A DNA stretch of 36,658 bases from Kiritimatiellia bacterium (GTDB lineage Bacteria; Verrucomicrobiota; Kiritimatiellia; CAIVKH01). This document shows positions 24,253 to 25,276 of this stretch, piece by piece. The stretch spans positions 1-36,658 of the forward strand of contig JANWZO010000023.1 of the NCBI GenBank assembly GCA_025054615.1, given 5' to 3'. Below the pieces are notes generated by a model. The model searched no databases and was not told where the DNA came from. It saw nothing but the letters and a program-made list of their open reading frames with translations. The stretch's first letter is position 1, and the number at the start of each line of letters is the position of its first letter. The position numbers and the translations under genes are program-made.

Positions 24253-24325
24253 GGCAATCTCACCTCAAACAGGTCTCAACTCTGGAACGGGAAACAGCGC
24301 GCGCCGCTGCCCCGCCTTTCGCCTG

Positions 24326-24419
<94 letters not shown>

Positions 24420-24581
24420 GCGAAGCGATCGTGAGGTGCGCTCGCGCGCCTTCCTGAACTTCACGACCGTACCCCGGGTCACCCCAACAGGCAAGCTCGC
24501 AAAAGCTGACCCTCTTCGATGAATTCGTTGAACGTAGGCGCATGTGTAGTGTCATATAATCATCAGAGCTAGAGGCCTTCG

Positions 24582-24947
24582 TTGAAATCCGTTCAGTGGA
24601 TTATTATCGCGATTTACACGGCTGGTCTGGCGGCAGCCGCCCCCGTGCGTTGGGTCGATTTGCCCGTGAAAAATCTTTGTTGTTGCGAGAACTCTTCCAA
24701 AGATGCAGGGGGTTGTTGCTGTCAGGATAATACTTCTTCCAGTCGAGATTTAGGAGATTCAACCTGCGCGGGGTCTGCGTGCTCTTGCAAGTCAATGCCA
24801 GCGGGATCTACGGCGGCCATTTTACCTCCTCAGGGCGAAGCGCCCGAAATAGGCGCCCCATCCCATTCGGTCTTCCCATCCGACGCCTCGGCGCAATCGC
24901 GAACGGATGGCCCACTGGCTCCTCCGCCAATTCGCCCGCTGACCTGA
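24582..24947 (+). CDS. Secreted Cys-rich small protein, function unknown
   Basis: A 121-residue protein starting at TTG 24582 with TAGAGG about six bases upstream. The first 20 residues (KSVQWIIIAIYTAGLAAAA) form a signal peptide. The mature part has nine Cys within about 45 residues, arranged as CCC, CCC, then C, C and CxC. A Pro/Ser-rich tail without Cys follows. A TATAAT box lies at 24555-24560 but with poor -35 spacing. I do not recognise a family. The Cys clusters and the neighbour at 25019 suggest metal binding or disulfide structure outside the cytoplasm. It is divergent from the SRP RNA. Confidence 0.6.
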   Translation: MKSVQWIIIAIYTAGLAAAAPVRWVDLPVKNLCCCENSSKDAGGCCCQDNTSSSRDLGDSTCAGSACSCKSMPAGSTAAILPPQGEAPEIGAPSHSVFPSDASAQSRTDGPLAPPPIRPLT

Positions 24948-24962
24948 CACAAGTAGTTGTAC

Positions 24963-24979
24963 CGGGTTTCAACCCGTTT
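24963..24979 (+). terminator. Weak hairpin between the two Cys-rich genes
   Basis: CGGGT and ACCCG flank a TTCA loop and are followed by TTT. It lies 16 bases after the first Cys-rich gene and could act as a partial terminator or processing site that separates expression of the two genes. Confidence 0.3.
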
Positions 24980-25018
24980 ACGTGTCCAAACAGAAAACGA
25001 CCCGAATCGGAGGATTCC

Positions 25019-25219
25019 ATGAAATTCATTTTGATGATGCTGTTGAACATGGGGGTTGTTCTTCAGGGGGCATTTGCAGCAGGCTCGGACGCAGAGTCGA
25101 CAGATGACGCGGCGCGAAAGCCGGCATTGTGCATCTGTTGCAAGTGCGACCCGTGCTCCTGCGAACCTTGCGCTTGCTGCAAGTGCAGCGGCGAATGCAA
25201 CTGCCCGAAGAAGGGCTGA
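25019..25219 (+). CDS. Secreted metallothionein-like Cys-rich peptide
   Basis: A 66-residue protein. ATG 25019 is chosen over a longer upstream frame because CGGAGG sits just before it and because it gives a clean signal peptide (KFILMMLLNMGVVLQGAFA, cleavage after AFA). The mature peptide is about 46 residues. Its last third has 12 Cys in about 25 residues, in CxC, CC and CxxC spacings with Lys, Asp and Glu between them. It contains no His or aromatic residue. The composition is like metallothioneins, which bind Zn, Cd or Cu(I) through thiolates, but those are normally cytoplasmic. No family match can be claimed. It is followed by a very strong terminator. Confidence 0.7.
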   Translation: MKFILMMLLNMGVVLQGAFAAGSDAESTDDAARKPALCICCKCDPCSCEPCACCKCSGECNCPKKG

Positions 25220-25235
25220 TTCACCAACCCCGATC

Positions 25236-25276
25236 GATCCGCCCGGCGCCCAGCCGCCGGGCGGATCTTTCTTTTT
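25236..25276 (+). terminator. Strong intrinsic terminator of the Cys-rich gene pair
   Basis: A perfect 13-bp stem (25236-25248 with 25255-25267, GATCCGCCCGGCG and its complement) surrounds a six-base loop. It is followed by TTTCTTTTT. It lies 17 bases after the stop codon at 25219 and is the clearest terminator in the window. Confidence 0.92.

Follow-up and report, generated by a model that had tools for sequence, protein, structure and literature searches.

The window, by which we mean the whole 36,658-nt stretch analysed (a contig of a Kiritimatiellia bacterium), contains a compact unit of two small genes, ORF1 and ORF2, followed by an intrinsic terminator (Table 1). The initial annotation of this DNA, made from its letters alone, had described two consecutive genes with signal peptides, and both the sequence and the homologues described below confirm that the two adjacent proteins start with export-signal-like N-termini; the 13-bp terminator said to close the unit is likewise present. 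The unit is flanked on the minus strand by the divergent dnaX and small SRP RNA genes, the latter (window 24322-24420, minus strand) lying just upstream of dnaX and adjoining the promoter region of the unit, and downstream by a gene encoding a 3'-5' exonuclease. No metal-related genes were found among these neighbours in the window.

Table 1. Features of the two-gene unit (positions in the window).
Feature	Position	Strand	Basis or remark
Two-gene unit: ORF1, ORF2, terminator (~690 nt with terminator)	24582-25267	+	
TATAAT, possible -10 element, 21 nt 5' of the ORF1 start	24555-24560	+	Consensus match only; no good -35
AGAGG, probable ribosome-binding site of ORF1, 6 nt upstream of TTG	24571-24575	+	Sequence
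ORF1, TTG start, 121 aa; proposed leader peptide, CutF/CruR-like and metal-sensing	24582-24947	+	Homologues; dN/dS
ORF1 signal-peptide-like region, residues 1-20	24582-24641	+	By inspection
ORF1 Cys cluster CCC...CCC...C....C.C, residues 33-69	24678-24788	+	Sequence
ORF1 C-terminal motif RTDGPLAPPPI; proposed ribosome-stalling motif	24900-24932	+	Conserved in homologues
TCCTCCG in the PPP codons; complement of CGGAGGA in the Shine-Dalgarno region of ORF2	24920-24926	+	Alone not significant, p = 0.23
Small intergenic hairpin CGGGT(TTCA)ACCCG	24963-24976	+	Stability not above that of shuffled sequence, z = 0.08 (not significant)
CGGAGG, Shine-Dalgarno of ORF2, 5 nt upstream of ATG	25008-25013	+	Sequence
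ORF2, 66 aa, ATG start; predicted exported metallothionein-like protein	25019-25219	+	Sequence, homologues
ORF2 signal peptide MKFILMMLLNMGVVLQGAFA; cleavage predicted before AGSD	25019-25078	+	By inspection; homologue N-termini
ORF2 12-Cys core CICCKCDPCSCEPCACCKCSGECNC	25130-25204	+	Two repeats of CxCCxCxxCxCxx; second repeat +1 residue
Intrinsic terminator closing the unit	25236-25267	+	13-bp stem, 11 G-C pairs, T-rich tail TTTCTTTTTG

The N-terminus of ORF1 is hydrophobic and followed, as judged by eye, by AAAA-P. The two CCC clusters noted previously are located at residues 33-35 and 45-47, and single cysteines follow at positions 62, 67 and 69. A conserved Pro-rich C-terminal tail had been missed; in the window, the last proline of its PPP stands 47 residues from the last Cys pair and 5 residues from the C-terminus. 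In ORF2, our recount agrees with the 12 Cys reported earlier, all within the 25 residues 38-62, and with a mature chain of ~46 residues if cleavage occurs, as it appears by eye, after residue 20. ORF2 matched no Pfam, NCBIfam or PDB profile, metallothionein models and structures included, and the earlier statement that no family was recognised holds at the Pfam/NCBIfam level. ORF1, searched against the same three collections, likewise gave no usable match.

Relatives of ORF2 were sought in three ways: 388 genomes of the phylum were scanned for the pattern of Cys codons, the class was searched with a profile, and a further profile search used ORF1. As the initial annotation had proposed that homologues be sought by their Cys spacing, it is worth stating that the pattern is kept in other genomes: window-type ORF2s were found in G036, G010, G448, G027, G014, G449, G404, G402 and G169 (the G448 sequence, L109, belongs to an uncultured Verrucomicrobia MAG). 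The window-type pair is present in nine genomes with a constant gene order and a gap of 40-95 nt. Directly 5' of each ORF2, except that of G402, lies an ORF1 homologue (106-129 aa), represented in G404 by its tail only, at a contig end. Eight Cys of the ORF2 core are invariant across the nine aligned sequences, and a signal-like N-terminus is present in all nine. In genus g6, purifying selection acts on both genes: dN/dS among three congeners ranges from 0.08 to 0.13 for ORF2 and from 0.33 to 0.47 for ORF1. Since gene order, Cys spacing and the two signal sequences are all kept in the homologues, and since dN/dS is low, the two-gene pattern goes beyond chance. The pair is missing from the seven relatives searched in the window's own family; its distribution is therefore patchy.

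The ORF2 core of G402 (L236, G402:C3; reverse strand, ~2600-2780 of the reversed locus) has neither an ORF1 nor an evident signal peptide and adjoins a mntP-like gene on the opposite strand; we read it as a decayed or mis-assembled copy. In G036 and G448 of genus g6, an exported small protein, CPVM...YVCCGGC, is encoded directly 5' of ORF1 (L046:6531-6809, L109:5873-6151); it resembles a heavy-metal-binding domain of the TRASH/YHS type, with no Pfam match above cut-off. Several candidate relatives were discarded: the only second location suggested for ORF2 in the window's own genome (C15) lacks the Cys pattern and matches by chance, most matches of the genome-wide Cys-pattern scan are CTG-type repeats, and 27-aa ORFs of marine viral contigs (L267, L281, L299 and L315) that share the metallothionein-like spacing of Cys are artefacts, being read in another frame of a conserved gene.

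The tails of the ORF1 homologues, among others SRTDRPAVPPPI, ERTDPPLLRPPI, SRTERPPVPPPI and NRNEPPQTPPPI, share the consensus R-T-D-x-P-x-x-[P/R]-P-P-I, whose end lies 2-5 residues short of the stop codon in every homologue read. The profile searches with ORF1 also led to a second family of Verrucomicrobiota, f47, in which 28 ORF1 loci were read, with tails RSDRPPVPPPRA or close variants. In all 28, a different short exported peptide is encoded 56-96 nt downstream; it is 40-43 aa long in 27 loci and was read as 62 aa in one after a shifted end. These peptides (e.g., MKYLLMIIAALALLGTAQATSTAADCCGGGACCFPGSPCCAQ) have the pattern DCCGGGxCC...CC, i.e., three CC pairs with Gly spacers, and resemble the window ORF2 only in the signal peptide. 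The unit therefore has a constant part, ORF1, and a variable one, the exported Cys-rich effector. When their profiles are compared, the two ORF1 groups align at the tail (93%, E 3e-7; first set with G169 and without G172). An Arg occupies position -9, counted back from the last Pro of the PP, in 11 of 11 ORF1s of the first set and 28 of 28 of f47 (39 read, G172 being in both sets). The distance from Cys to PP is 43-49 residues in the window-type set and 39-46 in f47, i.e., 39-49 overall, with values of 47 for G448 and the partial G404 taken from the aligned Cys (the automatic rule gave 55 and 18).

These properties recall two known leader proteins. CutF of Rhodobacter capsulatus contains C69xxxC73 and ends with PEPEGPPPRL, with 43 residues from C73 to P116 (PMC8456105); CruR of Bordetella pertussis contains C90-C93 and RAPP at 139-142, with 49 residues from C93 to P142 (PMC9426467). 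The Cys-to-PP distances of the ORF1s, counted in the same way, bracket both values; they are close to those of CutF and CruR, yet vary by more than two residues. Like CutF, the product of the first gene of cutFOG (118 aa versus 121 aa for the window ORF1), ORF1 combines an N-terminus resembling a Sec signal peptide, a Cys motif and a Pro-rich tail and heads a short operon; the product encoded downstream of CutF is exported, as is predicted for ORF2, and the f47 ORF1s end with PPPR and a few residues, as CutF ends with PPPRL. The CutF-like sequences of PMC9973294 were filtered for fewer than 150 aa, a PP within 15 residues of the C-terminus and a cleavable Sec signal peptide, and ORF1 falls within this set by length and PP position. 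Nevertheless, the CutF motif CxxxC differs from that of the window ORF1, and CutF governs a multicopper oxidase and a chaperone, whereas a metallothionein-like gene lies downstream of ORF1.

CruR (DUF2946, PF11162), an exported leader too, likewise combines a Cys motif with a PP arrest motif at the C-terminus, but its RAPP is replaced here by LAPPPI in the window and by LRPPI or VPPPR elsewhere, and its target is a TonB-dependent transporter, which it represses through Rho. Eight window-type ORF1s, including that of the window, gave no match to DUF2946. The f47 ORF1s share a weak full-length similarity with this family: 12 of 19 match it below the cut-off (best E 8.8e-4), and one scores 15.2 bits against a gathering cut-off of 23.7 bits. 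Its sequence features most likely mark ORF1 as an upstream regulator of the CutF/CruR type, which would sense metal during its own synthesis, and not as the equivalent of ORF2 in a pair of Cys-rich proteins, as initially described.

Alternatively, the two proteins could be structural partners, with no stalling involved: ORF1 would be an exported metal chaperone that contacts another protein through its Pro-rich tail, with ORF2 as its cargo or storage partner. Both proteins have signal peptides and many Cys, the gene order is conserved, and CutF itself was first proposed to be a chaperone by the authors of PMC8456105; however, later work found cis regulation for both CutF and CruR (PMC9973294, PMC9426467, PMC12992588). 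The pattern of conservation also argues against a partnership: the linker between the Cys cluster and the tail is poorly conserved in the 11 ORF1s, whereas the tail (with its Arg at -9 and PP invariant) and its spacing from the Cys are kept, and ORF1 evolves faster than ORF2. We thus regard structural partnership as rather unlikely.

We favour, with moderate confidence, the view that the unit is a metal-responsive leader and effector operon, in which a stalling leader of the CutF/CruR type, ORF1, precedes an exported metal sink, ORF2. With a Cys-to-PP distance of this length, the Cys motif would have just emerged from the ribosome tunnel by the time the PP is at the peptidyl-transferase centre. 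We infer that a ribosome reaching the RTDxPxxPPPI tail of ORF1, a short Sec-exported leader, would have the Cys cluster, 43-49 residues back, just out of the exit tunnel. Binding of metal, most likely Cu(I), to these Cys, together with export of the chain, would alter the duration of the stall, and a stall on the last ORF1 codons would raise the expression of ORF2 from the same short transcript. Exported ORF2 would then fold around the metal via the 12 Cys of its two CxCCxCxxCxC repeats and act as an extracytoplasmic thiolate sink that buffers the metal. Against this view stand the neighbours of the unit in the window, none of them a metal gene, the absence of the pair from family relatives and, for the window ORF1, the missing RAPP and DUF2946 match; the SD predictions for the window and f47 given below also weigh against it. 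By analogy, this metal is probably copper, since most Cys-type leaders are linked to copper (PMC9973294); it may also be Zn, Cd or Ag. The window's genome encodes heme-copper oxidases, so that its organism needs copper, and its only HMA-domain match is a small lipoprotein-like protein.

CutF and CruR act in opposite directions: with CutF, copper turns the downstream gene on through a stem-loop that masks the Shine-Dalgarno (SD) sequence (PMC9973294), whereas CruR, whose arrest has been observed in vitro (PMC12992588), turns its own downstream gene off through Rho (PMC9426467). The masking stem-loop of CutF was demonstrated experimentally, whereas no masking is predicted in the window, where the predicted pairing of the SD is low, at 0.19, and ORF1 takes no part in it. 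Strong masking by ORF1 codons is predicted in one genus only (G036, G448 and G010; 0.81-0.86), and the complementarity of the tail codons to the SD is marginal in the window-type set (P 0.03). In f47, this complementarity is 5.46 versus 4.29 under synonymous recoding, a statistic that ignores relatedness, and modelling ribosome occupancy, i.e., removing the ORF1 part, leaves the SD as before (0.78 versus 0.77). The f47 loci also contain a covarying hairpin, GGCTCG...CGAG, between ORF1 and ORF2 (intergenic regions of L371-L385 and L388-L400), located ~25 nt 5' of the AACAGGAGG SD and ahead of an A-rich stretch. In this hairpin, 90.8% of cells are paired and 27 cells are changed on both sides, versus 7.0 +/- 3.9 in shuffles and only 1-5 when the arms are slid. 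As it is followed by the A-rich stretch and the SD, with no T-run, it is not an intrinsic terminator.

The same leader could instead operate a Rho-dependent switch as in CruR, the stalled ribosome blocking Rho until metal releases the stall and the unit is turned off. This would agree with the lack of any sign of SD masking in the window and with the base composition at the 3' end of ORF1, where C outnumbers G over the final 180 nt in each of the nine genes. However, Pro codons by themselves enrich for C, a short gap of 71 nt separates the ORF1 stop from the ORF2 start in the window, versus 162 in cruR, and a metal sink turned off in the presence of metal would make little sense. We consider this variant improbable. 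Metal would be expected to induce a metal sink, which makes the direction of CutF likelier than that of CruR.

Bacterial metallothioneins are few and mostly regarded as cytosolic, since free thiols oxidise outside the membrane. ORF2 is short and Cys-dense with CxC and CC clusters, as is required of a metallothionein, and its repeat is conserved. It shares its very small size, Cys density and CxC and CC motifs with SmtA, MymT and PmtA, but differs from them by its export signal and by matching no family model or solved structure. Metallothioneins are drawn among the cytosolic copper binders in a review of copper (PMC7558416), and PmtA was reported on the cell surface (PMC11237414). Csp1, which is Cys-rich and exported like ORF2, provides a precedent for an exported Cu(I)-thiolate store (PMC7558416). 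Whereas Csp1 is a Tat-exported tetramer of four-helix bundles, ORF2, with ~46 mature residues, clustered Cys, no twin-arginine motif and no PDB profile match, has no similarity to it. The exported metal trap suggested by the initial annotation is supported for ORF2 by the conserved signal sequence, the 12-Cys repeat and an upstream leader that resembles copper-responsive ones; ORF1 is most likely not a second trap. Nothing was found in favour of the antimicrobial or disulfide-rich peptide that it had also suggested, and a secreted disulfide peptide with an antimicrobial, signalling or redox role is hardly probable: an oxidising envelope would favour disulfides and terminal oxidases are encoded in the genome, but the CxC and CC motifs, hydrophilic spacers and absence of other conserved residues better fit metal-thiolate clusters, and the f47 counterpart has only three CC pairs with Gly spacers.

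More broadly, and tentatively, Verrucomicrobiota may possess a distinct class of extracytoplasmic metallothioneins with at least two Cys architectures, each turned on by a metal-sensing, translation-arresting leader of its own. Leaders of this type and metallothioneins as such are already known. In the literature searched, which was mostly outside subscription journals, we found neither their combination nor the export of such a metallothionein-like effector, its two forms or an occurrence in this phylum; nor did any paper describe an exported metallothionein governed by a CutF-like leader. If correct, the proposed operon would join nascent-chain metal sensing to a thiol metal sink outside the cytoplasm, a link new to that literature, and show control of the CutF/CruR type in Verrucomicrobiota and over a new kind of output. 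A conserved exported form under a co-translational metal sensor would point to timing such that the protein meets metal at once, and a unit of this compactness would be easy to test as a metal-responsive switch.

ORF1-type genes also occur in another context. In G411, such a gene heads an operon encoding a lipoprotein and a MacB/FtsX ABC transporter instead, as expected of a portable leader. Other exported Cys-cluster proteins of Verrucomicrobiota (L205:1438-1866, L211:1354-1776 and L212:1501-1863) end with hydrophobic tails (KAHVCFLI, QRFLI) and not with PP, and possibly form another leader family; that of L212 is encoded directly after a permease gene.
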